Shown here: positions 23,799 to 59,996 of the stretch, piece by piece
Layout of the letters: each line of letters starts with the position of its first letter
Numbering within the stretch: position 1 is the stretch's first letter
Assembly: GCA_964035575.1 (NCBI GenBank)
Contig: OZ037892.1
Location: forward strand, 186,001-250,000
Origin: Rhynchopus sp. YZ270_cl-10
Lineage: Eukaryota; Euglenozoa; Diplonemea; Diplonemida; Diplonemidae
Reading direction: 5' to 3'
Length of the DNA: 64,000 nucleotides
Program-made: the position numbers and the translations under genes
The notes under the pieces: model-generated
Database searches by the model: none
What the model saw: the letters and a program-made list of their open reading frames with translations, nothing else
What the model was told of the DNA's origin: nothing

Positions 23799-26700
23799 CA
23801 GGGTCCTCAACCTGTCTAAGTTAGGCCATAACTTAGACAATTTTTTTTTTTTTGAAAAACGCTTTGTCTAAGTTAGACAAAACCTGGGTTTTGGGTTTTT
23901 GGGTGGTTTGAAAGAGAAGAAGCTTTACTGAAAACAAAAAAAAAAAATGAGTTCCCTCAAGACTCCCTCAGTCCTCACCTGCGCGGACCCCATTGTACCC
24001 ACCCACACAAGCCACCTCCTCAGACTAACTACAATTGAACAAACTCATCCGCAAAAATGCCTGCCACTGCCAAGACCTCCAAAGCACAGCCCACCATCGT
24101 GTCCATGTTCAAGAAGGGAGCTGTTGCGGCACCTGTGGTACGTGTGGTGGAACCCAACAAAGGGGATACGCACTACGACCTGTGGTCTTCAGGCAAGTAC
24201 AAGTCCATCCCCGATGGTCCGACACCCCGGCTCGCTTCCCTTCACCTTTTTCTTGTGGCGGAGGGGACGGTGAGGGGGTTTAAAAACCACCAGAACGACA
24301 CCAACAAGGTGCTCAAACTCTGGTTGAAGGAGTTTGATCGCGCCAAACTGGCGGACGACGACAGGGAGGGGAGCAAGCGGAAGACGATCCTGACGATCGT
24401 TGCGGAGGCGCATGAGTTCGCCATGAACGAAGCAGAGAAGGGGGGAGACAGCGATGCCTCTGCCGTGTCTGTGCAGAGCCAGGTGTCGCAAGGCAAGAAG
24501 GTGAAGAAACGTGTGGTGATGATGGCTCCACAGGTGAGTGCTGTTAAGTACGTGGATTCAACGTCCGAAGAAGAGGAGGAGGAGCAATGTGTGCCAGTGA
24601 GACGCAACGCAGCATCCGAGCAACCCGAGGCAGCAATGGAAATCGATGATGTCGACGAGTACTCTTCTGACGGCGATGTTGTCTTCTTAGGTCCCACGCA
24701 CTCCAACACGAACAATCCCAACCTCACGAACACCACGACCGCACCAGCGAACACCGACTCCACCAACACGCTGAAACGTAAACGCGAAGCGCAGGAGAAA
24801 GGTTGTATGGGTCTGCGGGAGAGCACGGTGCAGGGCCATTTGAACCGTTTTTCCCCCTGGTTGGTGGTGGGTGAAGACAAGTTCAAGTGCTTGTATTGTG
24901 GTGCTTTCTCTCATGCAAAGACCAAGCTCGCCAGAGACCTCCCTGCGCATGCAGGCGACCCCAAACACCAACGTCTCGTGAAGGCTGCCGCTCTGCAGGC
25001 TTCCAATGGAACCGTGCTTCACACGTTGCACGCCAACAGCGACAAAGAAGTCGAGTTCAACCAAAAAATGCTGAAAATATGCATTGAGGTTATTGTTTTC
25101 CTCGCGCGCAAAGGTGTAGGGCACTCTAACTTGGAGGAGTTTCTGAGTTTTTTCGCAGACAAGCTGGAGTGCACCGACATGGAGGCATACCTCAGACAAC
25201 AAATACGCTATCTCAGCTGCGGTGCAGTCTTAGAGATCATGTCCTGCATCACGGAGGTGTTGACAGAAGACCTCCTCAAGCAGGTCAAAGCCTCCCGTTT
25301 CTGGGGCCTGTCGGGGGATTGCTCACGCGACGTCAGCAAGAAGGAGCAACTCGTCTTCGTCGTGCGATACATGGTCGGTGCCACCCCCGTCGAGAAGCTC
25401 ATCATGATGGGTGAGCTGAAGGACCAGACGGGGGCTGGTTACGCGTCGTTGCTGACGAAGTGGATAGACCAGCTCGGGCTCGACTACGGGAAGATGAGTG
25501 GATGCTCGTTTGATGGCGCATCGGCAATGCGTTCCTCGAACAAGGGCTGCCAACAACAAATCCGTGCAGACATAAACCCAGGCGCCCTCTTCACCTGGTG
25601 CTACGCACACTCCCTCGCACTCTGTGGCCCAGAAGCAGCGGCAGAGGGGAAATCGCCGGAGATTACCCGGTTCTTCGACGGCCTGCGGTGGGTGTGGGTT
25701 TTTTTTTCGGGATCCAAGATTAAGCTCGACACCCTGGAGGAGATGCTGGAGGAACTTCGCGACTTGTGTGAGTACTGTGACATCCTCATCGCAAAGCCGG
25801 GTGACACCCGGTGGCTCACCAACGGCAGGTGTTGCAGCACCGTCCGCAAGGAGTACCCCGCCGTGCACAGCGCCCTGTGCAAGCTTGGAGAGGCCGGCGA
25901 CGTGGAAGCACCGTTCATCGCGCAGCACATCAAAGAGCCCGGTTTTTTTGCAACGTTGTCCTTCATGACGGTGGTCCTGGACGAGTTGAACGTGCTGTCG
26001 ACGTCGCTCCAGAGCAGGAACACAAACCTGCTCACCGTTTGCAGCCACATCGACAAATGTGTTGCGTCATTGTCGTTGCTTGAAACCAACCCGAACATGT
26101 TCCCGTTCTACCCAGAATGGGTACCGAGGTATAATCAATGCCACGGTACAAAACTTTCCCGTCGGAACTTTGCGATTCATCACGACACGGTCTGCAAGCC
26201 ATACCTCAAGGAGCTGCTGAAGTGCCTCAGTGAACGATTCGTGAACATGGACATTGTGAGATGCTTCTCAGTATTCGACATCCGCAACCTCCCTGCTAAC
26301 GCGGACGGGCTGGCGATCTACGGCAACACCGAGGTGAAGAAGCTCATCGAGGAATTTACTGAGCTGCATACACTCGAGTACAAAAAGTACGATGTTGTGG
26401 GCGAGAAGACGCGTGGGAGACCAGAGTACTCCAAGACGGAGCATACTGTGATATCGCGCACTCAAACAACGCCGTTACTGAGCGTGGACACGACGCCGTT
26501 CGTTGAGGAGTCGCCAGAACTGAACAGTCTGGAGACAAAGAAAGCTGTAGCTGTGAAAGAATGGAGGATCCTGGTGGACGTTTTGTCGAAGAGAACTACA
26601 ACAAAGGACACTTCGGACCTGATCGCAACATTCTTGACAAGTTCCGCAGGAGACGCCTACCCCATTATGAGGGATCTTGTTTTGCTTGGGTTGTCAATCC

Positions 26701-27170
26701 CCGTCACATCAGTTGAAGACGAGCGCTGCTTCAACGGCATGAAGTACGTCAAGAATAGCTACAGAAACAAACTGCTGGATTCAAGTCTGCTATGCATTCT
26801 TATGTGCAAACAGGCAGAGACAAATGAGAATAAATTTACGCCTGACCAAATCCAAAGGATTTTTGAAGCCTTTAAAAGAAAGAAGGTTAGAGTTTCTGTG
26901 TGATGCTTATCAGGTTGGGGGGACAATGGGGTTAGGGGTACGGGTGGGGCGAAGGGGTGGGGTGGGGTGTGATTGTTCATTTGTCGAACTCTTCTATTGA
27001 AATGAAAAGACCACTTAACGAGTTTCGAAAAAGCAACACAAAAAAAAAAAGCCCCCAATTTTTAGCTTTGTACAGGACCTTTTCGCGCGGAGCGCGAAAA
27101 TTTTTTTTTAGCCTTTTTTTTTAACTTAGACAAATCTGTGGCCAGACTTTGTCTACGGTTGAGGACCCTG
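23799..27170 (+). mobile_element. Complete hAT-superfamily DNA transposon, 3372 bp
   Basis: The ends are perfect 14-bp inverted repeats, CAGGGTCCTCAACC at 23799-23812 and its complement at 27157-27170. The flanks are an 8-bp target duplication AAAGTGGT (23791-23798 and 27171-27178), the length expected for hAT. Subterminal TCTAAGTTA motifs recur inside both ends (23813-23880, 27121-27156) and may bind transposase. It encodes one uninterrupted 948-aa transposase. All parts look whole, so recent activity is plausible. A deleted relative lies at 35677-36303 in the opposite orientation. Confidence 0.95.
24057..26903 (+). CDS. hAT transposase with BED-type zinc finger
   Basis: 948 aa. The N-terminal 200 residues are basic then acidic and low complexity. 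A BED-like finger follows at about 265-310 (FKCLYCGAFS then HAGDPKHQRL; Cys-x2-Cys and His-x5-His spacing). The RNase H-fold core carries likely catalytic aspartates in FWGLSGDCSRDVSKKEQL (about 419) and SGCSFDGASAMR (about 484). PGDTRWLTNGR near 582 is also typical, within the helical insertion that hAT proteins share. The C-terminus (about 865-920, LGLSIPVTSVEDERCFNGMK) is the hAT dimerisation region. The frame is uninterrupted. The first 59 residues are encoded identically in the 35677-36303 derivative. Confidence 0.92.
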   Translation: MPATAKTSKAQPTIVSMFKKGAVAAPVVRVVEPNKGDTHYDLWSSGKYKSIPDGPTPRLASLHLFLVAEGTVRGFKNHQNDTNKVLKLWLKEFDRAKLADDDREGSKRKTILTIVAEAHEFAMNEAEKGGDSDASAVSVQSQVSQGKKVKKRVVMMAPQVSAVKYVDSTSEEEEEEQCVPVRRNAASEQPEAAMEIDDVDEYSSDGDVVFLGPTHSNTNNPNLTNTTTAPANTDSTNTLKRKREAQEKGCMGLRESTVQGHLNRFSPWLVVGEDKFKCLYCGAFSHAKTKLARDLPAHAGDPKHQRLVKAAALQASNGTVLHTLHANSDKEVEFNQKMLKICIEVIVFLARKGVGHSNLEEFLSFFADKLECTDMEAYLRQQIRYLSCGAVLEIMSCITEVLTEDLLKQVKASRFWGLSGDCSRDVSKKEQLVFVVRYMVGATPVEKLIMMGELKDQTGAGYASLLTKWIDQLGLDYGKMSGCSFDGASAMRSSNKGCQQQIRADINPGALFTWCYAHSLALCGPEAAAEGKSPEITRFFDGLRWVWVFFSGSKIKLDTLEEMLEELRDLCEYCDILIAKPGDTRWLTNGRCCSTVRKEYPAVHSALCKLGEAGDVEAPFIAQHIKEPGFFATLSFMTVVLDELNVLSTSLQSRNTNLLTVCSHIDKCVASLSLLETNPNMFPFYPEWVPRYNQCHGTKLSRRNFAIHHDTVCKPYLKELLKCLSERFVNMDIVRCFSVFDIRNLPANADGLAIYGNTEVKKLIEEFTELHTLEYKKYDVVGEKTRGRPEYSKTEHTVISRTQTTPLLSVDTTPFVEESPELNSLETKKAVAVKEWRILVDVLSKRTTTKDTSDLIATFLTSSAGDAYPIMRDLVLLGLSIPVTSVEDERCFNGMKYVKNSYRNKLLDSSLLCILMCKQAETNENKFTPDQIQRIFEAFKRKKVRVSV

Positions 27171-27803
27171 AAAGTGGTGTGGAAAAAAAGAAAAACAAAA
27201 CGAAAGGAAAAGGAAAAGAAGGTCTCCAAAAGAGGGGAAAATAACTGTTTTTTTGGTGGTTAAAAAGATCGGTGGTTTGGCGGTGGGGGAAGTTGCTACC
27301 GAAAAAATCGGGTGGGTCAGAGGGGAGTTGAGGCAAAAAAAATGATGAATGTAAACTTTTTTTATTCTGGGATACATTTGCTTTGAAGAAGTGGGTAGCA
27401 GGGTTGCGTTACAGACGACACATAACCGCATCACTGTGCTGTGGCAAAGATACGAGACAAGAAAGAGACTCTTGGTTTTGTGTTTTGTTTCTGTTGCTTT
27501 TGTACCGATTAAATCTAAAAAAATAACACTGAGAGACATTTGAAGAAAAATTGAAGATGCTTGTGTCGACACATCAAATTATTATTTTCATATATTTTTC
27601 GAATCAAAGACCGGAAAGCACACAAAGGCGTTCAAGAAACGATCCGGTACGTCTTTTTTCAAAAAAAAAATATGTAAGTTGAGAGTGCAGACGCCTCTGC
27701 GGACCCAAGAGAAGACACCAAAACAAAAGGGGGGTTCTGAAAGGTGTTAAAAAAGACGATCCCCGAAACGTAAGTATGGAAAATTCTAGCTTTTCTGTTC
27801 ACT
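27171..27803. other. Spacer with a repeat related to 32826-33530
   Basis: Segment 27340-27550 matches 32826-33060 (TATTCTGGGATACATT, GTTGCGTTACAGACG, CGCATCACTGTGCTGTGGCA, GAGACAAG). Segment 27572-27645 matches 33462-33530 (TTTCATATATTT, TTCAAGAAACGAT). Both are in direct orientation on either side of the interrupted gene at 27804-32622. A diverged family A copy lies at 27672-27706. No gene is seen. Confidence 0.5.
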
Positions 27804-30800
27804 TCACCTACGCTCCCCCATCGCGAGACGATTCACCGTTTCCCTCAACCCCCGGTTCTCACCTTCCAGCTTGCTCACGTAGGCATGCAGTTCCTGTTTA
27901 TTTTAATTTTTCGCTGTTTATTTACCCCCCGCTTTTTTCCATACGTCACACTGTGGCTAGGGGTATGGGGATAGGTTCGCTGGGATAGCATATTTGGGGA
28001 TAGCATATGCCATCCCCCAGGGGATAGCATAACCTATCCCCGGGGATAGGTTATGCTATCCCCGGGGATAGGTTATGCTATCCCCCTGGGATAGGTTATT
28101 TCAGGATAACCTATCCCCCTGGGATAGCATTTGACTGTACTTTACTAAGGATCTGCGTGCTGGGGACACAAAAATTTAGTATCCCCACCCAGGTGCCCAT
28201 TTGTCACCTTCCCACCCCTTAAAAAAATACAAAATAATGGGGGGATTCGGGTGCCCAAATAATCCTATGCACAAAAAATGAAGCGGGGGGGAAAAGGGAT
28301 AAATAATTTTATTTCCCCCACCCAACAACAATGATAAAGCGTAACGACAACAAATAAAAGCAAATAGGAATTTGTGGTTTTTGTGAGGCACTCAACGAAG
28401 TGTGCCGGCTCTGTGGAGACACGGAGCCACCAGCACTCCCCAGTCTTTTTTCCGGAAGTACCTGGAAAACTCGCGGTTGCGACCAGGCAAACGAAAAAAT
28501 TCAATTACACACCAAATGTGTGCGGGAGAAAATAGAAATGCAAAAAATTCCAGCTTCATCTGTGGGTGCGACGTTCTGCGGGCCTCCAGACATTAGGTGT
28601 TATAATTATTCTTGTTGCCACTCATCACCATCAGAATAACACCACAAAATGTCTGGAAGCCCGCAGAACGTCGCACCCACAGATGAAGCTGGAATTCCAA
28701 AACAAAAAGACCTCTTCGCAGACTTCTTCAAGCTGTACGTGCTTCCTGCACCCAAACACAGCATCCACGTGACGGACCTCAGGGAACTGATCCGAAAGGT
28801 ATTCCCCAAGCACTTCGGCAAACTTTCTGACGTAACGCCAACTGTCACATCCGCGATTAAGTCTGCACACAAGAAGGTCAAGGATAACTTGACAAAAAAT
28901 GAGCACGAAGCACTTATGGCAGATGGGAGCGATGCGTGGCTCTACCGGTCCAAGAACGGTGCCCCCTGTGTCCTCTATGGAATGGATATTCGCAAGGAGC
29001 CAACCAACCACATGAAGACTACCTCCGCATACATCCACATTAGGAAGTATGCGTTGACATGTCTCCTTGACGACATGGACGTCACCTTCGAGAAGATCAA
29101 ACAGGAAAGGGAAGATGCGGAAGAGGCTGCAAAAGACAACAAGAAGACGACCACCAAGCCGAATACCGAGTCGAAGACCAAGGTGAAGGCCGATACCAAG
29201 AGTGCGGTGGCTGCTTTCGTGTACCCGGGCCATGATATGGTTGGGTTCCCTGACCGCGTCGAGATCCGCTTCGACGCCCCGTTGAATGAAAGGTACATGC
29301 AACTGGTCTCCGAAGAAGGAGACCCGAATGCGCCCTCTTTTGCGGGGCGCACGTTCAACATCGCCTGGAGGAGGTGCGTGGAAGGGGAGGTAGGGGCCGC
29401 CTCGCCCCCTTCCGGGTTGTACCGACGCCAGGTTTCCCTCCCCGAAGGGGACTATGCTCGCGATGCCATCACGGTATGCCACAGAGAAAGAATAAGAATA
29501 ACACAATACCAAATATAACCCAGATTGACTCCAACGACGAGAACAGGACCGTGGTGGTCATCCCCCGTGTCATATCCAGGGCCAAGATCTCCATTGGGGG
29601 AAAGAGGAAGAGGGAAGAGGACGGAAGCGGCTTGACGGTAAACCCCTCATCGAACCTCATCGAAGACACCACCAGTGGTGGAATGTAAAATTCACGGAGA
29701 AGAGAAAAACCTATCAAAAAAGTCTACCGCCATCAACAATATGCACCCCCTCCCCCCCCTTTTTTTTTGCAACCCACCCCACCCACCCCACCCGAACAAG
29801 AAAAATTAAAACAGCTACAAATCAAACTACTGAACAATGGATCCACAGCTTCTCGAAGCGATCCGCGAAGGCTTGGAAAAGGGCAGACTCCAGGCCCGTG
29901 TGTCTGAACACCAGGCAGCCCTCATGCAGAAAACTATGAATGCTGTGCTAAAAGAAAAAGGGTTCGCACCCCTCTCCCTCGGCCTTTCTCGCTATGCAGG
30001 CACGCACAAGAAGCGCCTTGCTGAAGAGGCCGGCCTCCTCCTGAACTCCCTCCCGAACATCTGCCTCGATCTCTTGGAGACGCTTCCGGATGGCTGCAGG
30101 CCAAGTTCCGTTACGGGGGTTCTCCTCAGGGATGATTACAATCCCCTGAATGCCTTCCGCAATGAAGGCAAGAGAACACGGCTCTGCGTCGCGCTGTACT
30201 TTGTGTGGGAGGGGGAGTTTTATTGCACAGAGCCAGTGACTGTTGCGGACAAGGGCCCTGTGGAGTACAAGAACTGGTACATGAACGAGTTTCTAGCTCA
30301 GGTTGTTGATCTGAATCAGTTCCCACTGACCATGACTGACACCCATCAGGTGTTCGTCAGACTGGAGCGTGTTGGTGGTGACCATCATGATTTGTGGTCG
30401 TATTTTTACAGGATGGGGGGGAAGGGACACCGCTCGGCTTTTTGCTCTACAGAGCGGTCATTCTCAGTCACACAGCTGCATACGTGCAAACGCCTTGACC
30501 TTCGTGAGCTCGACCAAGCAGGTTTTTACAACCAGCTGTGGGAACTAATGCTTCCTTATTCCTGCACCACGACCCCCACCCTGCACGACACCAAAGGGGT
30601 TATCATAATACTATGCAACCTACTCGAGGCAGGGTTTTGCTCTCTCCCAGATGAATTACAAAGATCAAAAAAGGACACTGAACCGATCAAGAGCCTGACA
30701 GGGAAGCAGGCGCATATTGCCCTGACCAACCTGTGCATGCAGGCAAAAGATGTTCAGCTCCAGATTGCGCTCTGTATGCAGGCACTCTCGTACTTTAAGT

Positions 30801-32622
30801 ACCAGAATATATCGTGCCACTTTCATGCAAACGGAAGCTGCAAAAAGGAGTTTCTTTTTTCTCTTGTTCTGTACCACGCACTCATCTTTTCTCTTGAGTG
30901 GGTGGCTGCAGGGGTGACAATGGGGAAGGGATACACATATTTTCACAGCATGTCCCACTGGTTTGATCCAGAGGACGCTGTGCCTGTCTGGGCATCAGAC
31001 GAAATGGGGGAGCAAGGGAACAGCACGAGAAAGCTCTCAGCTGGACGGGTTGGGTCGGGGAAACAGTTTGAGAGGGGACAACACCGCTTTGAATCGGCGA
31101 GGAAAAAAAGTTTCAAAAAAATACCCACTCCTTCGCAAAAAGAAGACGACGTACCGCGCATATTTGCCTACAGTTATTTAAAAATTTGCAAGCGTTGTTT
31201 CACACGCAACAATACGTGGAGAACGAACTTGGATTATCTGGTGCAGCGAGTGAAGAGATGCGGATTCGACGGTCATGTGACGACTCAGGAGGGAACTAAC
31301 GACATTTTGTTCAGTGCTGACTCTAATAACCATCAGTGCTTCAAACTGTGTGTGTGTGGCAAAAGAAAATGGGACATACCTTCACGAGCTTCCGAATACA
31401 TAAGTGAGTGAGGAGTTCCACAAATCTGCTTTTTTCCCTGTGTTACCTTTTGAACTTTTGTGTGATTTTTATTGTGTGAAATGCTTGTTTTTTTATCCGC
31501 ATCCTTTTTTATTTATTTATCCCTTCCCCCCCCCCGCTTCATTTTTTGTGCATAGGATTATTTGGGCACCCGAATCCCCCCATTATTTTGTATTTTTTTA
31601 AGGGGTGGGAAGGTGACAAATGGGCACCTGGGTGGGGATACTAAATTTTTGTGTCCCCAGCACGCAGATCCTTAGTAAAGTACAGTCAAATGCTATCCCA
31701 GGGGGATAGGTTATCCTGAAATAACCTATCCCAGGGGGATAGCATAACCTATCCCCGGGGATAGCATAACCTATCCCCGGGGATAGGTTATGCTATCCCC
31801 TGGGGGATGGCATATGCTATCCCCAAATATGCTATCCCAGCGAACCTATCCCCATACCCCTAGCCACAGTGCAGACCACGTTTCTTGTGCATCAAACTTC
31901 GGACGGTAGCCTGCGATTTCTAGGGCATGAGGGTGGGTCGACGATGTCTGGGTACGCACTACCACCTCGAGAGGCCCCACACCATCACCATCACCCCCTC
32001 CTCCTCCTCCTCCTCCTCCTCCACCCCTCCCGTGTAGATGGCTCCCTTCACCAATCCTGCTCTGTTGAGGCTCGGTTGCATCGCTCAGCAAAGAATGGGT
32101 GCGGTCTTTCTCCCGCTGCTGTGTCGCATGAAGGATGATGTTCTCTACCCGGCGAAGCTCTCTTCGGAGAAAGGCGGTTTGGGCACGCTCTGCATCGGGG
32201 TGGTCGATCGTGTGGATGGAGCTGCGTCGTGAGGATGGTGGGGGTGGAATCTCTTCTGGAGGAGGGGTGTCAAAACGCTCCTCGAAGGGAGGGTCTGACC
32301 ACTCCTCCTCAGAGACGTGCAGGAGGGCTGCAGTCTGCTCTTCCTGCCGTTTGAGAAGGGAGCCGAAGGCATCCGGTGGTGAGCTTGCGGAGGATGACTG
32401 CGCAAACCCACGTTTCTTGTTTTCACCGACATTCACCTGCATTGCGCTTCTGTCCTCTACCGACGGAGTGTCGGAAGAGGACAGAATCTTTTTCATGGAG
32501 GTATGTGCACTGAGCATGCTTCTTTCGAAGCTCAGCCACGTCGGTTCATCATCGACTGGTGTGCGTATAGGTGTAGGGCGTGGTAAGGTGGCGTCTGCTG
32601 GGGTAACACCACTTTGGCGCAT
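27804..32622 (-). CDS. Two-exon coiled-coil protein gene, interrupted by a 3.9-kb DNA element
   Basis: Exon 1 runs from the ATG at 32622 to the element boundary at 31872. It encodes about 250 residues: a Ser/Pro-rich, likely disordered N-terminus, a charged helix (ERAQTAFLRRELRRVENIIL) and a poly-Gly tract from GGA-type triplets (about 31995-32030). Exon 2 (27893-27804) encodes ELHAYVSKLEGENRGLRETV and nine more residues to the stop, a short coiled coil resembling a leucine zipper without an obvious basic region. Removing the element and one CA duplication restores TGG TCT GAC|GTATGG, a donor in phase 0 with the acceptor AAACAG at 27894-27899, so the native intron was about 54 nt. With the element present an alternative in-frame donor exists inside it (see findings). 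Function unknown. Confidence 0.7.
27949..28306 (+). repeat. Left terminal inverted repeat of the 3.9-kb element
   Basis: The first 190 bp consist of palindromic GGGATAG/CTATCCC units. The inner part carries TAAGGATCTGCGTGCTGGGG and ATTTGGGCACCC-type sequence that reappears inverted at 31514-31700. The C and G runs near the inner end differ in length between the two repeats, which is typical of homopolymer slippage. Confidence 0.85.
28546..28696 (+). repeat. 49-bp inverted repeat covering the first start codon of the element
   Basis: Arms 28546-28594 and 28648-28696 are complementary with one mismatch and separated by 53 bp. The right arm contains the ATG at 28649 and the first 16 codons. A transcript from the promoter side would fold this start codon into a long hairpin. 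Confidence 0.8.
28649..29688 (+). CDS. Element protein 1, unknown, one 50-nt intron
   Basis: The first exon (28649-29473, 275 aa) ends in ACG before GTATGC. Acceptor ACCCAG at 29518-29523 leads to ATT GAC TCC in phase 0, giving a further 54 residues to TAA at 29686-29688; total 329 aa. Without splicing the frame stops at 29518. The protein has a helical N-terminal part (FADFFKLYVLPAPKHSIHV), a Lys/Thr-rich linker, and a C-terminal segment with a nuclear-localisation-like GGKRKREEDG. It could be a DNA-binding accessory protein. No family recognised. Confidence 0.7.
29837..31411 (+). CDS. Element protein 2, unknown, possible divergent transposase
   Basis: 524 aa, uninterrupted, starting MDPQLLEAIREGLEKGRLQA. 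It lies 148 bp after element protein 1 on the same strand. The central part is Cys/His-rich (ISCHFHANGSCKKEF). WASDEMGEQGNSTRKLSAGR follows a hydrophobic helix near residue 350-400, resembling the acidic Glu context at the end of an RNase H-like core, and the C-terminus has Cys pairs (KICKRCFTR and KLCVCGKRKW). A catalytic DDE set cannot be assigned by eye. As the largest protein of a two-gene TIR element it is the best transposase candidate, by position only. Confidence 0.65.
   Translation: MDPQLLEAIREGLEKGRLQARVSEHQAALMQKTMNAVLKEKGFAPLSLGLSRYAGTHKKRLAEEAGLLLNSLPNICLDLLETLPDGCRPSSVTGVLLRDDYNPLNAFRNEGKRTRLCVALYFVWEGEFYCTEPVTVADKGPVEYKNWYMNEFLAQVVDLNQFPLTMTDTHQVFVRLERVGGDHHDLWSYFYRMGGKGHRSAFCSTERSFSVTQLHTCKRLDLRELDQAGFYNQLWELMLPYSCTTTPTLHDTKGVIIILCNLLEAGFCSLPDELQRSKKDTEPIKSLTGKQAHIALTNLCMQAKDVQLQIALCMQALSYFKYQNISCHFHANGSCKKEFLFSLVLYHALIFSLEWVAAGVTMGKGYTYFHSMSHWFDPEDAVPVWASDEMGEQGNSTRKLSAGRVGSGKQFERGQHRFESARKKSFKKIPTPSQKEDDVPRIFAYSYLKICKRCFTRNNTWRTNLDYLVQRVKRCGFDGHVTTQEGTNDILFSADSNNHQCFKLCVCGKRKWDIPSRASEYISE
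31514..31871 (-). repeat. Right terminal inverted repeat of the 3.9-kb element
   Basis: It is the inverted match of the left repeat. Read from the host gene's strand it begins at 31871 with CACTGTGGCTAGGG followed by GTATGG, the donor-like hexamer at 31857-31852. Confidence 0.85.
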
Positions 32623-32704: not shown

Positions 32705-32770
32705 ACATGGGCGCAAATCCTGGCTGCAAATCGCCCCAGGGCGATTTGCGGCCAGGATTTGCGCCCATGT
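32705..32770. repeat. Near-perfect 32-bp-arm palindrome
   Basis: Arms 32705-32736 and 32739-32770 (starting ACATGGGCGCAAATCC) pair with one mismatch around a 2-bp centre. It lies about 85 bp upstream of the ATG at 32622 on the gene strand. Confidence 0.85.
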
Positions 32771-32825
32771 TAGTGGATTTCTTCACCAAAATTTCAAAAG
32801 TGGGGAAGTTGAAGGCAAAAAAACT

Positions 32826-33530
32826 AAATGAGGAACGGAACCTTTTTATTCTGGGATACATTGCTGTGAAGAAGGGTGGGTGGGTAGGTGGCTAGGGTGC
32901 GTTACAGACGGCACACAAACGCATCACTGTGCTGTGGCAAAGATATGAGACAAGGAGACTCTTGTCTGACCGCTCTTGGGGGGGTTTTTTTTTTTTTTTT
33001 TGGATTTTGTTTCTGCTGATTTTGCATCAATTTAAAAATACTGTGAGACATTTTTAGGAATACGGATTTCACCACTCAAATTTCTTCCCTTTTAAAAAAA
33101 ATGGCTTTAATGTATTACGCATCAGACACCTGACGTCTTCACCATTTCGGTTAAAAAGACTTTTTTGTAAACTCCCCAAAATACTCCTTTGTTTTCCTCC
33201 TCCTTTTTTTCAGAGACTTTCCTGCATTGACCAACCTATAACAATAAACATACGGCACACCACACACTGCTGAGGGTAGCAATCACAGTGGTGGACAGTT
33301 GTGCCTTTGGATGTCGGGTGGAGGAAGAAAAACAAAAAGCAACGAAGGATGAATGAGCCACACTGTGCACCTCCAGCCTTTCCACTTCGCCACCAGCAAC
33401 CACAAAAAAAAAAAGGGATACCATGGAAGATATGATGACGCAAAGATACCCCGACACCCCATCAAAATATCATACTACTTTCATATATTTGCCAATAGAC
33501 CTGAAAGCTTCAAGAAACGATTTGGGCGGT
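32826..33530 (+). repeat. Spacer repeat related to 27340-27645
   Basis: Blocks 32826-33060 and 33462-33530 match 27340-27550 and 27572-27645 in the same order and orientation, with a ~400-bp insertion between blocks here. The rest of the stretch up to 33700 shows no gene. Confidence 0.5.
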
Positions 33531-48167: not shown

Positions 48168-51100
48168 CTACTTTGTTTGCTTTGCAGACCAGGTTGTGAG
48201 AAGGGTGCGCATGTTGAAGAGCGGGACACTCTGCGCAACAAAGAGTTTGGTTTGCGCTTCATTTGTTGTCAGCGCGGTGACAGGATAGTCTAGCTTAGGG
48301 CAGAGCGGCGTGCACACTGGCGTCAGAGTTGTGGTCTCAAGACACAACACCTTCCCACTCAACATCCCCACCAGAAGCAGGGTACCACTGAACTGTATAC
48401 ACGTTGCCTGCTCCTCAAGCTTCTTCCTCCCTAACGGTACTCCATTTATGTTCCAGACATTGAGCTGAGTTCTGCCTGATACGGTGCTAATTGCTACAAT
48501 ATCGCCGTTTTCTTTGTTGATGTCTACTGCAGAAATGGTTTCGTTTGGCTTGGGATCTGCTTTGATATGTGACCATGTGGAATGTGTCGGGAACACATCC
48601 TTTTCTATGCTAGAAAGACTGCGAATGAACGTCAAATCCAATAAATCCCATACGATAAGCAACCCATCCAGCCCGCAGGAGAGAATCACATTGTACTCCT
48701 TCGAGACAACAATCGCCACCACAGCGAGGGTGTGACCGTGCAACACGGCAAGGGGTTTCACCGTACGCAGCCTGCCTTCCCCATCCTCCATCGAGAGACA
48801 CCCTGCCGGAACCACAGGATGCACCCCGTACTCCCCACTATGCTGTGGAGTGTTAAATTGAAAGCTTGCATCCTTATCCCCCTCAACCTCCCAAGCTTCA
48901 AGAGTGGTCGCCTTTCTCTGCACAGCAGGCACCGTACAGCCGTATTTGTAGATCTCTATCGCTCCGCTTTCCATTCCCAACGCGATATGCGTTGAATCTG
49001 TAGATGAAGTAGCTGCAGTACGGATAGGGTCAACTCTGGTTGATTGTCTTAAGGTGAGCACCTCCTTTCCAGGCCGTGAAGGGTCGTAAAGGCGGATTTT
49101 CAGTGCATTATCCCAGGTACGGAATTGAAGAGATTCACGCAGAAGCTTTTCGCTTAATCCAATGAGTTCACCACCTGGCTCATGCGAGGAATGGATCAGA
49201 AGGATTTGATTCGCCCCAAGCGCGCAGATGTCGTCATCTGCGGTTTCTGTCGCAACAGAGTCGATGCATCGGGTGGTCGCGCTTTCCTTGCTGGAACCTT
49301 CCACGCGGTTGCTGACTAATGTGAAAATCGCTTCCTTACGTTGTTCCGATTTAACCAGAGTTAACGCCTTATCCGCAGCAGACCCTGCACTCCCAAATGG
49401 TGCTTCGTGAATCTTCCTCTCCGGAGGGCGCGTCTTCCAAAACGGCACATCCTTCGCATGAAATATCATTTCAACCGACCGCTTCTTATGCGGCTTGGTC
49501 AAAAGCTGGGTAGGCATCTGCCCAAAGTTGTTGATAATGTCAATCGTACTTTGCCTCCGTACCGGATCTTCTATAGCAGCGATGTTGACAGCGCCTTCAT
49601 ATGCATAAGGGTGAAAGCAGTTTAGCGCCTCGACTGCGAATTCTTTGGAGGCTTTGTACCCAAAGGTGAGGTCGATCCAGTGGTGAAGGTTTTTCGAGCA
49701 TTCTTCACCCTCTAGGGCTCGGCGTTGCATATCAACGAAGATTCTTGGATTACCCTTTGCCCAAGGGGGAAGCTCGAGGTGGTTTACCACAATTTTGTCT
49801 TGTTTGACGCCAAATTGGATTTCGTTGTTGTTGACAAGGAATTCGGGGAGGTAGAAGAATTCTGGGGTCAATTCTTTGACATCGCTTGAGGAAACTGCAG
49901 AGGAAAGCCTCCAGGCACGTTCCATGGAGTGGAAGGAGCGGTCGGGGACGTCTAATTTGAGGTCGTTTAGCTCGCAGAAGTAGTCGGTGAAGGGCTGCAG
50001 GCGGATGCAGTAGTAGAGTACCGTGGCGCGGTTGGAGAAGTGCGAGCCGTGGTGGTACGGTGGCAGCGCGTAGAGGTCCAGGTTCTCGTGGTGGTTGTCC
50101 TGCTCCTTCTTCCCGAACAATGCGCGCAACCCTGTCTGCGTCGTCGAAAAAGCCTTTCGTGAGTCGCGTGCAGTGTCGCCACGCTCCATCTCAAACATCT
50201 CCTCCGTCTGCTCGTATTTATCTGCAGCGCGCTTTCTCCGCTCCTCCGTTTGACATCCCATAGGCCGTTTCAAATCTCTGTATGAATTAGGGTCGCTCAA
50301 ATCAAGTTCTTCTGACGTATAGTCCGCAAGGACGTGAGGGAACACTGGGTATTGTGTGAGGTCGTTGAAGGAACGCCCTGCAATGGTGTTGAGCGACATA
50401 ATGTATTGGAAGTTTGTGATCTCGCCGCGTTGCCATTTTTCCTGCCAGGTGGTGAGCTTTTCAGCGGTGTGGCTCATCTCCTTGGCGCGGCTGCAGTGCG
50501 AGAGAAGCTCGTTGTAGACCTTTTCACGTTCCCTTTCGTCCTCGAAGGAAAAGAAGAAGGCAAGACCTTTTTCACTGAAGACCTCAAGCGAGTTGTTCAT
50601 TAGCAAATACTTCCTCCGGAAGACTCCGGAAATCTCGGCGTATTGCGCGGTGAGCCTATGCCGGACAGCGTTGAGGTGCATTCTTTGGATCATCTTCTTT
50701 TTGCGATGCTTCTGAAGGTCGTTCATCGAGGATTTGAAGGAACTGTCGTGCGCCAGAGAAGAGTCCAGCACACCCCACGGCAGCGTTGATATGCTCTGCG
50801 ACAACGGGTCGTGCTCCAGGTTCTGCTCTAAATCGTCTTTGTACGGAGTGTCGTTCGAAAGGAAGTAGAGCGCCTTCGAGTACAGCACCAACTCCCCTGT
50901 TACGCGAACCATTGGAGTTACCTGAGCGCAAGGGTAAGAGGCGAGCTTCTTGTCGCGCGCAACAAAGGAGCTGAAGACCCCACCGTCGTCGCTGTGTCCG
51001 TGCATTCCAGGTTCGAATTTGTGGTCAATGAGGGCACGTAGCTCGTCGTCATCGTCGTCGAAGGCGCCTGGTGGTGAGGATGGTGGGACAGCGGGGGAGC

Positions 51101-54100
51101 CATGTGGGGTGTTGGTGTTGCTGTCTCCTGTGGAGATGAGGCCGAGCTCCTTGGAGAGGGGCTTCGAAAGGAAGCGCTTCATGCGCAGACGCATCCGGTC
51201 GGGGCCCTCCACATCGTCCAGACGCCAGTTGTACTCTGGCACAATGTTGGTGTACACTGCGCTAGCCGACCCCCAAAGGTCCTGCAGCATCACCCGGCTG
51301 TGCACAAGCTTTCCAATGACACCGCGTGACTCCTTCTCTCGGGCACGTTCTTGCTTGAGAGACGCAGCAGCGTTCACCTCATGGTCCTTGCGGAGGCGTG
51401 TCAGCTGTGCCTTGCCGGTGCTGTACAAAGTCAATTCAGACTTTTTCTTGTCAATCTTCAACACCCGAACTGCCCCCAGCCGTTCGTCACGTCGTCTCCG
51501 AATTTTCTTGAGAGATTTTGCATCCTCAGCGCGCATCTTCTGCAAGAAGTCTGAGTGCAGGAGCGGGTCGTTGCGCGGCTCTGGAACCTTGGTCCACTGT
51601 TGTTCGAGGGAATGCGTATCGGGGCCCATCAGGAGCGTGAAGAGAACGCAGGTCCCAGGGAGATGTGCGCGGCGCTCCAATGCCTGCAGTGCCATGGCCT
51701 CTCTGATGAGCGGCTGCTTCGTCTCGACGAGGTACCGCCACACTGCTTGGAGACGGGTCAGCTCGTCGCCGCGGGCGGAGCGGAGCCGCCACGATGTGTG
51801 GTTGATGAGCTGCTGGGAGAAGAGCGTCTCGTCGTCACCACGCGATGTGTTTGTCAGCACCACGAGCAGGTTGTCAGCATGCAGCTTCGGCGCAACTGGT
51901 GTCCAAAGCTGTGCCACCTCGTGGTTAAAGTTCAAAGGGTCCGCCCTGTTGTCATCCTGCACGGAACGCAGCAGGAACACCAACGCAAACGCAGACGCGC
52001 TCTCATTGGACGGCATCAACGCATGCCGCGTGCAGTACGCAGGAAAGGCAAGCATCTCAATCAAAAGCCGCTTCATGTGTTTGTGCAGCACCGCATCAGG
52101 CGTCTGTGATCCCAGCCCTGCAGTACGCAGGACCTTCGTCTTGAGAGGCGTCGACCGGTTGTTCTGCAGCGACGTCGCAAACACCACCGCCACACGCACG
52201 GTCTCAAACAGCCAGAAGATAAACGACTTCACACTACTCGGCGCGCCTGCAAGCTCTGACAGACCCTGCTCATCTGCGGGCTCTGCCACCTTGGCCTTCC
52301 CTGCCTGGCTCTTCTCCGGATGCAGCAACTGATGCACCTGCGCAGATCGTGCTCTGTTGTGACTGTGTCCCTTCACCCCTCCTCTTGGGCTTTTCAACGG
52401 CGCTCCATCCGGCGCACCGTTCATCTCCTCCTTCATCCACTCATACGCAAGAAGGTGTTCAGGAGACGGCCTCGTTGGGGCTGCAGCAGGAATCAGCCAG
52501 ACAAGGTTGGGTGACCCCCCTTTCACTGCATTGGAGCGTCCTCGGGTGGCCCGCCCCTCGCCGTCCGGCGCACAGAGGAGACGGGTGTGCTCTAGGGAAG
52601 GGTTGAGGGAGTACAGCAGGTTGAGGTGGAAGTGTTCGACCTTCTCCTCCGCCTGCTCGAGGTAGAGGGGGAGGTACTGTGGGGTCTTTGGGGAGGTCGC
52701 GGCGTCTTGGGATCCGTCGGAAGGTGGTGCATGGGCTTCTTGTGGTGCGCTGTCTGCTTGCCCGGTCACCTTTGTGAAACGCCACTCCTGCAGCAAATCT
52801 GTGCACAGCTCTGCAAAGGCAACAAACGAAGCAAGCACCGCACCGCTGGTTTCAGGCCCAAGCAGGCGCTTTCTGAAAGAGAGCAGGCAAGCGTGAAGAA
52901 CGTGCTGTTGGAGGTGGCACACCCAAGAATGTGCAGTAGCACTGTCCGCAATATCACGTACTTTTCCACTCAGATCCGCAATCATCCCAAGCACATTCCT
53001 CAGCAGCACGATAGGCGATTCGCCTGCTATCGCATGAGTCTCAGCAGCAGCCCAGGACACCATGTCGCAGAGAAGTGTTGTCGTGAGCCACGCAAACCCA
53101 GAATCATCGCAGGTCGCCTGCGGGCAGAGGAGCGAGACCACCAGGGTCGGGATCTGCTTTTCGATGAATTTGTTCTTGACGCTGGCAGAGCCTGAGTTGA
53201 AAATCTGGCGCAACGCATCGACGATCAAGGCACGCTTGAATTTGAGGTTCGCTGTGTACAGAGGCGACCCTGGGTATGCTGTTGTTGCCGCATCGCTGTC
53301 GCCGTCCTTCTGCGACGCTGCGATGCTTTCGTTCATTCTAATACTCCCCGGGGACAGCGACTCGACTGTCATCGACAGCATCGGTGCGAGCAGCTCCGGC
53401 ATCGCCAGCTCTGCGTAGCGTGGCTTCTCTGTGAGCGAATGGCGTGGGTTCGGCGACCCGCTGCCATCGCTTGGAACGATAGAAGGGTAGTCCGAAGGGA
53501 GGTCACCATCTGCCACAAGCTTCTGGAGGAGCGACGTCTTTTCGTGCAGCGTCTTGTAGATGGAATGCGCCGTCTCGCGTGCTTCATCCTCCATCAGTTC
53601 ATCCCTGAAGCATGACTCCAGCGACAAAGGGAACGCATGCGCAAGCGAAGTCTCCGAAGGCATTTCCGGCTGCGCCCCGCTCACCGGCAACACCTCCTTC
53701 ACAGTACGCTGCAAAATCTTTAAATCCACCTCACCCAAGTCTGGAGTAATAAACCCACCAAAATTCTTCAAAAACAGCAACGCCAATAAGGGCTGCCTCA
53801 CGGGGGGCTCCCCGGTACCCCTCTCTGGGCCTGCAGCACCTCGCGTCAACAGAAGCAACAACAGAAGAATCTCTGGCAATGCCGGGTCAAAGCTGTCCAA
53901 CGCCTGCGGCGAGACTGACGTAAACGACTTTCTCTTCCCCTGCAGCTCTGCGTACAGATGCACCACTAAATTCGGTCCATTCGGAAGGAACACACGACGC
54001 AGCTGCGTGAACTTGAGCGTCACAGAGAGGGACAACATAAGAGAGAAGCGCGACCTCGAGCACGTATCCGAGATGAGCGAAACAAAGGTGTCCATATCCG

Positions 54101-57100
54101 TTACGTTCCCCAGGATCGGGACCAACTCCCTCGCAGAGCAGCGGCTGAGAAGGAGCACCCAGAGCTCAAGAAGCCCACGCCGCCATTTGTTCTGCTTCAA
54201 CAGCTGCGCTTCCGCCTCAGCATCGCCTATAGGTCTCTGGCGCTGATAGTTCCATGTCTCAATGAAAAGACGCAGCAGTGATACCAAAGACTCGCCCGGT
54301 GGTGCGCCCAACCTTTCCCTCGCGTTTGTCGCTGCAGATGAAGAAGACGGTGCGACGTTCCCCATGGGGAGCGCACCGGGTTGCTTGCCGACCCGCAGAG
54401 TGCCGCCGAAGAGTGCGTTGAGGAGCTGTAGGGTGACGCCACGCAGCTCGGTTGAAAAGAAGGGGTTCTTCATTTGGTGGTGTGCGGACCCAGCGATTTT
54501 GTAGTGTTTGACGTTCTTAAGAATCCACGGAACGATGCCTGCATGGATGAGCATACGGCGATGTGCACGACCCAGAGGGTGTGACGAGATGAGCCCAGAG
54601 AGACCTACAATAAGCGCACGCTGCACCTTCAGTGGGGCACGACTCCATATTCCCCAGTCCAGCAGAATGACGCGAACAACGTTGATATCATGCAGCACAC
54701 AGTCGAAGGAGCGGGAGAGGTCGATCCCTGCGAGTTGAAAGCACGCCTCCAACATGGCCTCGTCAATGTCAACACGGTTCTTCTGGAGGTACCATGCCAG
54801 CGGGAGATAACCGTTCGCCAGCATGTCTTGTGTGTTTTCTGCGGAATATGCCATGAGGTCGACAATAAGGCGCAACGCCTGGACACGAGCCGCATGCGTT
54901 GTCGCAAGAGAGATGAGGGACACAATGCTCTGCATGCCTCCCACTGCTTTGAGAATGCCTTTGAATGTTGTGGAGGACATCGACTGTGCGGAGCCGAAGA
55001 GTGATAGGGAGACTGCGGCGTATGGTGCTAGGCGGTCGTCCACAGAGGCCTTCACAACGACGCTGTTTGCGGGGGTTTTGCGGCGTGTGTCGGTGTCTGA
55101 GACGGAGGGTGCGGAAGATGGTGACGGTCCGGCGTTGCTGACTGGGGACTCTCCGCGGGTTGCGTAGGAGAATTCGTCTTCGTCGTCGCTGGCGCGTGCA
55201 GACTCGTATGAGGTGGTGCCGTCTGCATTGGTCGTAGGGATGCTTGCGGTGCTTGCCGCAGCTGTTGCCGACAGCATCGCCGACGTTGCTGCGAGCGACA
55301 CTGTGTTGGAATGGGTCGAATGCGACTGCACCCTCGGCGTGCTTGCACCCGATGCCGACACACCCACCACACTTCCTGCCATCGACTGCCTCGAAGACCC
55401 CCCCGAACGTTGGTAATGCCCATTCGATCGCGACGCCTTTTCTGGAAAAATCGCCTTCGAAGAGACAAACGGACACATCGAGCTGCGTGACGAGATGACC
55501 ATAATAAGACGCTCATGAAGGTCTCCGGTACGCTGTGGTGGGATGCCCTCTGCAAGCCCGACTGCGGCAGAGAGCCACTCCGCAGCAGACTTGCGTGTTG
55601 CAGGGTTGGGTGAGGAGCACACCTCAGACTGGCGGTTGGTGAGCACACCGTGGCAGTGGTAGCTCTGCAGAGGCTCTTGGAGGTCCCCGCAGTAGTTGCG
55701 TCCCATGGAGTAGAGGAGATGCGACTGCCACTCCGTGATGGACCCCCAGAAGGTCAGCAGCGACCCCAGCTGCAGACTCGCAAAGCGCGGCCCCCTCTGG
55801 CACGCACGCTGTGACACCACCTCGAGACGGTCCTCGCGCATCAGGTTCAACAGCTTCTGTACCACGGACCCATCCTTCCCTCCCAGGCTCACCCCACCAG
55901 TGTTGCCACTCACAGGCGCCTGCTTCGAGGCACCAAACAGAACGTCCATGAGAGACCCGCCCAAAAGCATGCAAGTAAGCTTGCCGCCACGTTTCGAAAA
56001 CTTTTTGAATTTCTCGCGCCGGTCTGGGCGGATCGTCAAGCGTGCAGCAGCAGCGGTGCCTTCACGCATGCCGCCGTTGACGCGGATGTCGAACATATGG
56101 TTGATGCCGTCTGCCTGCGAGTCGATGGTGTGCGTGATGCAGACGTGGTACCATTTCTGCGGCTTCAGTCTCGTCAACCCGGCAGGGGTCACATGGTAGT
56201 ATTGGTGCTGTGTGTCGGCAGAGTCGTCGGTCATAGACACACGGAACTCCAGTTCAGCGGACCCAGACCCGCCGCAGCGTAGGCAGAAGTCTGTCACAAG
56301 ACATGCCCCGTTCTCGTCGTGGCTGAAGCCTGACTGTATCGTCGCAGTAGACTCGCCGGACTCTGCAAGGTCGCGCGTTTCAAAGCGCACCCACATCGCA
56401 AAGGTGTACCCCCTCCCCGGGCACGGCCACGTCCTGATGCTCAGCTTCGGCAGCGCTACCACGGGGACGACGTTGGTGTGTTCGTCTTTGTACTTCGGGA
56501 ACGACATAAAGTGGTGTGGCCCCATGTCCGAGGGTGTGTCTCTGCTTGCCCAATGCCTGAAGACCTCCATGCACTGCGCGCCAATGTGTTCGTGGTTGAT
56601 GTATGTAAGGAGCAGCTTTGCTGCCTCAGTGGCGCACTGTGTTTCACCTATGCAGCGTGCGAGGGCGAAGATGGAGGCTGCAAGGTCGTCGTCACGGCGC
56701 TGCTCGATGAGGGGAAGCGACTCTGCAAGCACGTTGCGCAGGAACCCTGACTGGTGCAGCTCGTACGCGTTGTGGATCGTGACCGAGGTGATCTTGCGGG
56801 TCACATCCAAAATATGCCTATGCAGCAGCGAGGACACATTCCAATACGCCTCAGGCAGCTCGACCGACGTCGGCACAGTCATGGACAACGCAGCCGACAG
56901 CACAGACGGGTGGTAGATGGCCCAGATCCGCATCTCATCCGACCCGGTGCTGCCTGGGTCTATGCTCACGGGGAGTCTGTGGTGCTTGAGGAGCGACGGT
57001 GTACAGACATTCTCTGGAAGCGGCAGGTTGCTTGAATGCGTCGCAAGCCTGAGCAACCCCAGGGACAGAAGGATCTTCAACCCGGGAAGCTTTGGGTCGT

Positions 57101-59996
57101 TCAGGAGGCGGAACGACTTGGCAAGCCTGTCGCCCACCGCAGAACGTTCGAAGGAGGTGTTCCCTTCGACCCCGCCTGCAGTGGCCGCAACGCTGGCAGC
57201 AGACATATACGTCAGAAGGTTGCCGACAAGGTACCAGAGCAGCTCGTTTCCTTCAGGGCCAGAGGCGAGACCTGACTCAGACCGTTCAAACTCGCGTGTA
57301 GAAGCCTCGACAGCCTCGGTCTCGGAGGTGCCGTCCTGCAGGCCAAAGAAGTGCCCTTCCTTGCACGGACGCATCTCAACAAGCTTTGCCAGCTCGGCTG
57401 CCGCAAGCACCGCATCACGTTCACATGCGTCTGCGACACGGCTGAACCCCTTCGCTTCCTTTGATATGAAGTACTCCAATGTGGCGGGGGCTGAGCGGCG
57501 GAAGATCTTGATGAGTGCGAGGAAGATCCTGCGGCGGAGCTGTGCGATCTTGAGGGGCGTGCCTGGCGAGAGGACGACAGGCGACGGCGTGACACATTCG
57601 ATATGTGGGTGCTGTCGGTGCGAGCATACGTCGGCCGAGACCACTACGTCGGGGCATTCTGGTGTTTGGTCTGCAGTTGAGACACGCTTCTTGTCCACAG
57701 CAGGCATGACGTCGCAGTGTGGGCATGGGATAAGCACCGACAGCTTGCGCGCTGCATCATCCGGGTGGATACCAACAGGGACAAGCTCGCTGACTGCAAG
57801 GAGGTTGCCAATAACATCATGGTCAAGACAGAGCAACTGCAGCAACGACGTCACTGCACGGAAATGAGGGAACGACGACGCAGACACATGAACCAGCAGT
57901 GCGTACAGGTCGATCAACAGCTCGTGGCATGAGTCAAGAAGATGGCGCACCGAAGGCTTGTCACGCTTGCACTGTCTGTACAGAACCGAGATGATGGTGC
58001 TGATGAAGGAAGGGCTGCCCCAGCCGAAGCGTGACTTCAGGAGGCGTGCCACCCATTCGCATATGCCTGCGGAGCGGAGTGCCTCAAAGACACCAACGTT
58101 TGCGTCCTGCTGCAGGCGGAGGATGGTTGCGAGCACGCGCTCATAGCCCTCCGAGAACCACTTCCCGCATCCGTCGTGCGCAGCCGTCAAGGGGACTTCG
58201 CTTTCAGGCGGAGCAAGCAACTTCACAAGACAGCGCAAATCGAAAACAAGCGCCTCCTTGAGCTGCGCATGGCTGGACAATGTCATGCGCTGGTCGTCAC
58301 CAAGCTTCTTCAGCGCATACGTAACCAGGCCATAGGTGCACGCCAAATACGACGTCTGCATCGGTGTGTCCAGATCCAAATGGTACTTCGTCGCCACGAC
58401 CATCACCGGCTGGTAGAACCACAGCGCGTCGCTCTCTTGGTGCCTCAGGTACTGCCGCGGGAAGCGCACCAACGCGAAGAGGAGGCAGTGGAGGAGGTGC
58501 TTGCGGAGCTGGAAGTCGACCTCACACTTGATGAAGGCGTTGATCAGGAGGCCGAAGGCTTGGCCGTTGCACCACGGGAGCGCCGAGGCTTCGAGGTGGA
58601 GGTTCGTTACGGAGACCCTCTCGGGTGCAGGCTGGGTAGTGCCCGCGGGCTCGCGCTCTGAGTCAGAGGAGAACTCTGCGCTGGCAGACGTCGCGTCCTG
58701 CGACAGTGAAAACGGCGACGACGACCGTGGCACAGATGCGTTGCTCTGCAGAGAAGGCGACTCTGTCACCGCCACCTTCGCCACCGAGGGCGAGCCCCAC
58801 AGCCGCTTCCACGGGTCCTTATGAGACTCCTCCAGCACCTCCAAGGACTGTGTCCCAGACAGCACAAACTCCTCCACAGCGGACGCAGTCAGCATCGGCG
58901 CTGAGCTTATCTGTTGAAAAGGGTTACATTATGGGATATCTTTGAAAGTAGAACCTATATCAGGCATATGGCATACCGCAAGCAAGATGAGAGGTATCTT
59001 GACGAGCTGCTGGATCTGCTGCGTGCTGACTGCGGTGTGCGCCCTGCTGTCAAACCCATCGCCGAAGCCTCGCAGCAGCTTTGTGACAATGTTGTAGCCA
59101 CCTCTGCGTTCAAAGTTGACCACAAGCACTTTATTATGCGTCAAACAAGCGATGATACAATCTAGCGCAGACTGCACGGCGGTGACCGCTGTGAGCAGGG
59201 TACCTGTTGTGTGGAGGGACGAGGCCACACGCACATCAAGAATTGCATCCGCCACATCCAGCGCAACATCCACAAAACCTTGCGTATAATTCGTCTGCGG
59301 CGACACCAGCAACTGCGCACCCCTGCTCGAAGCCGCCAGCAGACGCGACAGCATCCGCAGCGCCCCACCCCACTCCCCACGCACCCGACTCGCCACCTCT
59401 ACCCCTTCCTCCAAACACGCCCCAGCCGCATTTGGCAGCACCCACATCAACGGCACCCAACAGTACGTCCCATCCACCACACACCCTGCCAGCTGCCCCC
59501 CATCCCACGACACACTCAGACACACCTCCACCACCCGCCTCACCGTCTGGATCACCAGAAACGCGAGGGTTGTCTCACCGCTCCTCCACAATGCAGGGCA
59601 TTTGTGCACAGCTTTGCAGACCAACACTAATGAGGCGACAACCGCCTTCGCCCATGAGACGCTACGTGGCACGGAGGTGAGGCCTGCACAAACAAGGTTG
59701 ATGGAAGCGATAAGGTGCCGTGCAGGGCACGTAGAAGCATCCAGCCATGAACGTAGCGAAGACTCCTCCGTAGGTATGTGTAGTGTTCTGCGGGCCAGGG
59801 CAATTGCTAGAGCCTCAAGAAACGCTGCAGGCCCCCCTGCAGGTTCGTACACAAGAGACACCGGGACCGTTCCCGCCGCTATCAAGCCCGACAACGTGCC
59901 GCATGCTGCCAGACTCTCTGCACTCCCTCCCCCCGTCTCCTGCCACACCCCCCACAACTCCTCGATCTCGCGGAGCTGCGAGTTCGTCCGTTTCAT
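48168..59996 (-). CDS. Giant BEACH-WD40 protein (neurobeachin/LRBA-like), two exons
   Basis: Exon 1 (59996-58977, 340 aa, MKRTNSQLREIEELWG) and exon 2 (58910-48168, 3580 aa) join in phase 0 as LLA|ISSAPM across a 66-nt GTATGC...CAACAG intron, giving about 3920 aa, the size of neurobeachin-class proteins. An armadillo-like helical N-terminal half is followed by a LamG/concanavalin-like domain near 1165 (WPCPGRGYTFAMWVRFE), long helical repeats, a PH-BEACH domain near 3050-3150 (KYLLMNNSLEVFSEKGLAFF), the BEACH domain about 3160-3510 (ITNFQYIMSLNTIAGRSFND, ERAWRLSSAVSSSDVKELTP, NPRIFVDMQRRALEGEE, AYEGAVNI) and C-terminal WD40 repeats (VILSCGLDGLLIVWDLLD). Such proteins scaffold vesicle traffic and membrane-protein sorting. 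No interruption is seen in exon 2. Confidence 0.95.

Follow-up and report, generated by a model that had tools for sequence, protein, structure and literature searches.

We found a young DNA transposon in Rhynchopus sp. YZ270_cl-10 that lies antisense at the end of the first exon of a short kinesin-like gene, with a host-like splice donor in the repeat facing the exon and a candidate acceptor at its other end. Our preferred reading, for which we consider the chances about even, is that the transcript could be spliced by either of two routes and that the splice signals are a by-product of the repeat sequence. In this reading a recently active transposon (CA...TG ends, 2-bp target-site duplication, TA preferred) would have inserted antisense into a duplicated, motorless copy of a kinesin-like gene, 2 nt short of the exon 1 boundary, and its repeat would supply a host-like GTATG donor 14 nt in and a host-like CACAG acceptor 2 nt from the other end. 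The pre-mRNA may then join the donor at 31857 to the native acceptor at 27894, by which D becomes ALWLG, or it may lose 31857-27951 and then the native intron in the normal way, with an 18-nt scar that adds ALWLGC. The anatomy of the element, the empty-site paralogue, the host consensus, and the frame arithmetic are read directly from the DNA; from these we infer that splicing by either route could reach a useful level.

Our data partly support the interpretation in the initial annotation. The mechanism that it proposed, the first of these routes, is plausible and more complete than was suggested, while its evolutionary claim, selection of the donor to keep insertions near exon ends silent, is not supported by the sequence comparisons below. 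How new introns arise is not settled, and the introner families covered by PMC9860276 are short. This gene-bearing family makes a clean test case, since its ends match the host's donor and acceptor, the insertion is young, a paralogue lacks the element, and the genome contains 31 copies. If the splicing is real, a 3.9-kb transposon can act as an intron as soon as it lands, and if it is not, the case is a caution that intron-like ends can arise by accident.

A young transposon family with identical ends

We analyzed a stretch of 64,000 nt, referred to here as the window (contig OZ037892.1 of assembly GCA_964035575.1, positions 186,001-250,000 of the forward strand). Inverted repeats, copies elsewhere, and target-site duplications delimit an element of 3,923 bp at 27949-31871 with CACTG...CAGTG ends. 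Comparison of its arms gave a terminal inverted repeat of 343 nt at 31529-31871 (minus strand, the upstream end for the host transcript) and at 27949-28291 (minus strand, the downstream end), 100% complementary, as expected of a cut-and-paste DNA transposon, and composed mostly of GGGGATAGC/GCTATCCCC repeats. Comparison of the flanks showed the target dinucleotide CA at both 27947-27948 and 31872-31873. A script, this duplication, and a paralogue on contig C54 all confirmed that a 3923-bp element lies 2 bp before the end of a minus-strand exon with CA duplicated, as initially annotated.

The element's own open reading frames are on the plus strand, antisense to the host gene. ORF1 comprises a first exon (28649-29473) and a predicted second exon (29524-29688), with a predicted intron at 29474-29523 (donor GTATGC, one of several frame-compatible acceptors) and a spliced product of 329 aa. 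ORF2 (29837-31411) encodes 524 aa without a domain known to Pfam or informative relatives in the homologue search. Pfam gave no match to either element ORF (ORF1 taken unspliced) at E values up to 1, nor to two related proteins up to E 10. The homologue search, in which the 8000 candidates with most words in common were scored, retrieved three proteins, each of them this element again in near-identical or rearranged form, and a structure model made by AlphaFold without an alignment was unusable (pLDDT 33.6). The one long sister copy examined as a source of transposase, on C95, was rejected, since its interior of 4,099 bp contains no ORF above 128 aa. The family is possibly non-autonomous.

The ends of the element resemble those of a described group. 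The CMCT group is marked by 5'-CA...TG-3' ends and target-site duplications of 2-5 bp, and ESTA elements are EnSpm-like with TA duplications (accessible part of PMC12730594). The present element likewise has CA...TG ends and a 2-bp duplication with TA preferred, but it lacks a recognizable transposase, and Pfam profiles of the element and related proteins revealed no DDE transposase with C(2)C and H(3-4)H motifs; its kinship with this group (PMC12730594) lies in the ends alone. Our best reading is that it belongs to an undescribed orphan DNA-transposon family whose ends are intron-like, probably by accident.

A pattern search of the organism's own genome returned 63 element ends when 3 mismatches were allowed, of which 59 match exactly over 25 nt. 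These ends define 31 copies with at least one exact end (28 two-ended and 3 one-ended). A perfect 2-bp duplication, of the fixed length typical of cut-and-paste transposons, flanks 27 of the 28 two-ended copies (TA in 19/28, TG in three, CA in two including the window copy, and CG, AA, and TT in one each). The copies on C21, C43, and C99 have identical flanks, which leaves 26 distinct sites. Since the copies are near-identical (98-99% among the best full-length copies) and the arms perfect, the element is young. Shorter copies lack the middle, and a miniature element of approximately 61 bp (L089, C57:676624) consists almost solely of the two ends with TG on either side. The sole two-ended copy with unequal duplications (C8:1270809-1273598, TA/CA) lies approximately 35 kb from another copy with CA/CA, and recombination between copies may be responsible.

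The interrupted gene and its empty-site paralogue

The insertion point is 2 nt before the end of the host gene's exon 1, on the minus strand. This exon, recognized from its ORF and the paralogue, now runs over 31872-32622, and its last two bases, AC, are stranded at 27945-27946. The native intron (27894-27944, minus strand, 51 nt, GTATGG...AAACAG) is conserved in the paralogue, and a script placed its donor GT at 27944 and the last G of its acceptor at 27894. Exon 2, assigned from the paralogue, contains the stop codon (27804-27893, minus strand).

The 280-aa product of the empty site matches the two-exon paralogue on C54, and the two DNAs align across the exon junction. In the paralogue, exon 1 ends in CGGTCTGAT, the intron opens with GTATGGAAAA (donor GTATGG) and closes with AACAG, and exon 2 begins with GAACAGCAT. 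The initial annotation had joined the empty-site exon to exon 2 by a GTATGG intron, and both this intron and the empty site are supported because the paralogue has the same intron in the same place without the element.

The paralogue is larger, since its frame extends upstream and includes the C-terminal portion of a kinesin motor (PF00225, E 1.5e-9). A tblastn search of the window with its 500 upstream residues gave no match (E<=1), and in the host gene a stop codon shortly precedes the ATG. Our data indicate that the host gene arose by duplication of a kinesin-like gene, is truncated at its 5' end and motorless, and is perhaps dispensable. Over 274 codons, host and paralogue differ by a dN of 0.28 and a dS of 0.70; because of this ratio and the open frame, at least partial constraint on the short gene before the insertion is probable. 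A homologue search with the host protein retrieved only the protein itself.

Several other features surround the host gene. A 948-aa hAT-type transposase gene (24057-26903, plus strand; PF05699, E 1.2e-05) adjoins it. Two direct repeats, 80% identical (27319-27474 and 32799-32964), flank the gene together with the element and may be left over from the duplication that gave rise to the short gene. Directly upstream of the gene is a near-perfect palindrome with 32-nt arms (32705-32770, 97%).

Candidate splice sites in the terminal repeats

We read host introns by eye from Ras-family and UBC genes that are split by introns with homologous exons on both sides, after de novo intron finding from coding scores had returned noise. 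The consensus rests on 17 introns from 15 of the 20 loci fetched; L072, L075, L076, and L078 were excluded since homology did not secure both exons, and L079 (donor GTATGT, acceptor AAACAG) for a letter mismatch. Four of the 17 introns (L073, L074, L082) belong to a single cluster of related genes on C97. The donors are GTATGT (9), GTATGC (4), GTATGA (2), GTATAT (1), and GTGTGT (1), such that 15/17 begin with GTATG, and all 17 acceptors are NCAG (ACAG in 13). Intron lengths range from 50 to 383 nt. A Ras-family gene on C76 has a further predicted intron of 1,803 nt, so introns well above 50-383 nt are plausible. Elsewhere in the window, two long minus-strand frames of 355 and 3,575 codons (58929-59996 and 48168-58895), perhaps one gene, are separated by a candidate short intron (GTATGC...CAACAG).

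In both reading directions the element opens with CACTGTGGCTAGGG, continues across the candidate donor junction with GTATGGGG, and closes with CCCCTAGCCACAG and, after the candidate acceptor junction, TG. Since the repeat is inverted and the two ends are identical, both candidate sites are present in either orientation, and the annotated indifference to orientation holds. On the host strand, the repeat starts at 31871 and the candidate donor GTATGG lies 14 nt inside the element (31852-31857, minus strand, GT beginning at 31857); the candidate acceptor CCACAG is in the other repeat (27951-27956, minus strand), with its last G at 27951, 2 nt before the element ends. Both sites were located by sequence and matrix. 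By sequence, the element thus has two candidate splice sites at its boundaries, where introners carry or recruit theirs (GGG/GTATGG at +15 and CCACAG/TG at -2, the slash marking the junction). The in-frame, phase 0 GGG/GTATGG reported earlier is present and is of host type in its GTATG.

How well the donor scores depends on the reference set. With a matrix of 19 sites, made of the 17 introns plus the native pair from the host gene and its paralogue (one native acceptor padded by one letter), the repeat donor scored 9.72 bits, inside the range of 7.3-14.2, and donors of this quality occurred in the window at 1.6e-4 per nt (threshold rounded up and slightly strict). With the 17 sites without the native pair, it scored 6.22 bits, below the range of 8.2-14.5, because a G at +6 is never seen in those sites, and the window rate was 1.3e-3 per nt. 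On the 17-site scale the host's native donor scored 1.23 and the paralogue's 4.47; these two genes have the only GTATGG donors among the 19 sites. From the window rates, a donor of equal quality would fall within 25 nt of an end by chance in approximately 0.4-3% of cases, before counting all the places a reader could look. The candidate acceptor scored 7.05 bits, above only the lowest (6.7) of the 19 known acceptors; the next one scores 7.3 and the best 13.8. On its minus strand the element contains one other donor as good (element position 493) and eight acceptors as good.

The predicted products bear out the earlier frame arithmetic. Joining the donor at 31857 to the native acceptor at 27894 would remove 3964 nt, as a script confirmed, and give 284 aa with D replaced by ALWLG. 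Without splicing, the frame does run into a stop, and the read-through product of 258 aa, which also appears among the open reading frames, ends in ...SALWLGVWG and keeps 250 of the 280 residues. Joining 31857 to the element's own acceptor at 27951 would leave an 18-nt scar (14+2+2) and keep the native donor, giving ALWLGCD, an addition of ALWLGC. The whole element could in this way leave as an intron via its own acceptor, a new route beside the exchange of D for ALWLG. The scar is frame-neutral; two of its three phases are stop-free with the duplications TA, CA, TG, CG, and TT, and with AA one phase is.

Taken together, the paralogue's intron without the element, the host consensus, the fit to the 19-site scores, the frame products, the 1,803-nt predicted intron, and the youth of the insertion would count in favor of splicing. 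Against it count an intron of 3.9 kb, approximately 10 times the longest of the 17 introns read by homology, and the rival sites inside the element, along with a donor below the 17-site range and an acceptor near the bottom of the known scores. Furthermore, both candidate sites fall inside a perfect 343-bp stem in the transcript (-177 kcal/mol for the 80-nt ends alone), which may hide them.

By-product or evolved device, and other repeats

It is possible, though we do not favor it, that the insertion simply truncates the gene, so that transcripts stop after ...ALWLGVWG (258 aa) or are cut and degraded, and that this is tolerated since the gene is dispensable. The motor in the paralogue, the absence of tblastn matches in the window to its upstream residues (E<=1), the stop before the host ATG, and the 250/280 residues kept by the read-through product all agree with this, and in so young an insertion decay would not show yet. 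The open frame and a dN of 0.28 vs a dS of 0.70 point the other way, suggesting that the shorter gene was constrained during at least some of the period after duplication. An assembly artefact is scarcely credible: nothing positive suggests one, and the perfect target-site duplication, the exact known ends, and the agreement of both flanks with the paralogue argue against it.

A bolder reading is that the repeat ends were selected as a two-way intron in an introner-like family that keeps its exonic insertions silent. Both sites at the proper ends, the frame-neutral and mostly stop-free scar, and the Aureococcus introners, which bring both sites with them and add 12 bp (accessible part of PMC9860276), would agree with it, but our comparisons make it very unlikely. 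By ORF scores, only the window copy, 1/28 two-ended copies (26 distinct sites), is inserted at a convincing exon, and the recurrence as introns in many genes that marks introners is accordingly absent as far as these scores reach. The coding score was trained on nine window ORFs and is rough and noisy, and short exons could be missed. Coding coverage over the 26 distinct sites, a noisy measure, was 0.17 within 50 bp of the insertion points vs 0.40 at 1000-1500 bp, as expected if the family prefers AT-rich spacers or if exonic copies are lost. The initial annotation had named insertion of other copies at random with respect to exons as evidence against selection, and within the reach of the ORF scores the outcome goes against the selection idea.

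The borderline exon calls are judgements. A 90-nt score flagged six copies at the insertion point (the window copy, C8:1270809, C8:1439810, C25, and both on C78). The best spanning ORFs of C8:1439810, C25, and both C78 copies scored -1.1 to -1.7 and were read as non-coding, while the 103-aa minus-strand ORF at C8:1270809 (-0.17) ends at the site, where the unequal duplications mean that the joined sequence is not a true empty site. At C49, a 194-aa minus-strand ORF (-0.29) lies opposite a better plus-strand ORF starting 40 nt away, and the 605-aa ORF at C17 (-0.43) likely has its start codon inside, downstream of the site. Two further ORFs, of 65 aa at C11 (-0.28) and 40 aa at C8:1232768 (0.03), were also borderline, and we judged none of these cases convincing.

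Relatives of the element gave a similar answer. Among 15 related ends with CACTGTGGCNAGGGG, GTATG occupies the donor position in one (C9), GTGTG in four, and neither in ten, so 14/15 lack GTATG; three of the 15 are of CAAGGGG type, and the match on C10 may be due to chance. In the closest sister copies, all four ends read (C90, C95 twice, C100) have GGTTGG or GGTCGG at the donor position. A pattern favoring GTATG lists three further GTGTG ends outside the 15 (C57:1226520, C67:868102, C76:543362). A donor-free pattern found 60 CTAGGGG-type ends, with GTATGG in all but the one on C10 (59/60), which agrees with selection, but this constancy is equally explained by the family's youth and by transposase binding. 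The CAG/TG acceptor exists because the CACTG terminus is common to all these ends. The window copy's intact frame is uninformative since identical arms make it too young. All three tests of an evolved device (position, relatives, and age) were negative or neutral. In our view the splice signals come incidentally with the repeat sequence and are not an evolved device. It is likewise unlikely that the full-length gene-bearing transposon, and not only a miniature derivative, is itself an introner, its identical ends making a frame-neutral intron in either orientation so that exonic insertions start as introns.

Insertions of maize En/Spm, which can be spliced at sites in their ends, offer a precedent for splicing of this kind. 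Maize Ds1 has three donors and two acceptors, and the end of the present element similarly supplies a donor able to make part of the insertion an intron; unlike it, Ds was tested in plants, makes an 8-nt target duplication, and has unrelated ends (accessible part of PMC5432752). Introners, known from Micromonas, Aureococcus, Symbiodinium, and others, have terminal inverted repeats and target-site duplications in many families, with splice sites carried by the element or recruited from the target, and the Aureococcus type carries both sites and adds codons (12 bp). They are short (family medians 30-654 nt) and recur as introns in many genes (accessible part of PMC9860276). The present element shares with them the inverted repeats, the duplication, and candidate splice sites at both ends, but it is one exonic case in 28, measures 3.9 kb with its own ORFs, and its splicing is hypothetical. 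Amoebophrya has hairpin-bearing introners with variable splice sites (accessible part of PMC7789003). The soybean CACTA element Tgm-Express1 (5,725 bp), in an intron of an F3H gene, is also large, bears gene fragments, and can be removed from the transcript by splicing, but it lies inside an existing intron, and the accessible part of PMC1947982 does not say that its own ends supply splice sites. A search by title and opening abstract, mostly outside subscription journals, found no gene-bearing element that is itself an intron, and we do not claim that none is in print.

Two other families were observed. A repeat of approximately 100 nt, with the core GGTTCGATAACCCGCGGAGAACCA and later GTTTGCACTTTCAACTT and a T-run, is present in five of the 20 intron loci, which were chosen by gene homology only (L064, L069, L074, L079, and L081); the model was built from four of these, L081 being independent. 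A model search placed it at eight positions in the window, all on the minus strand, the strand of most window genes (853-765, 1833-1732, 10303-10186, 34300-34207, and 46056-45967, and more weakly 59-13, 40461-40427, and 27698-27661). Rfam returned nothing above curated score for seven loci, with one chance-level line. The 24-nt core has 295 matches in the genome at up to 2 mismatches, and the repeat is possibly a SINE-like or intron-spreading element. There are also many similar Ras-like matches genome-wide (profile 1-118, E ~2e-8; for example C6:4461, C42:6158, C66:4909, C93:7379, C20:23192, and C50:1400965), some within approximately 70 kb of contig ends and others, on C24, scattered across more than 200 kb, which looks like an expanded, perhaps partly subtelomeric family.
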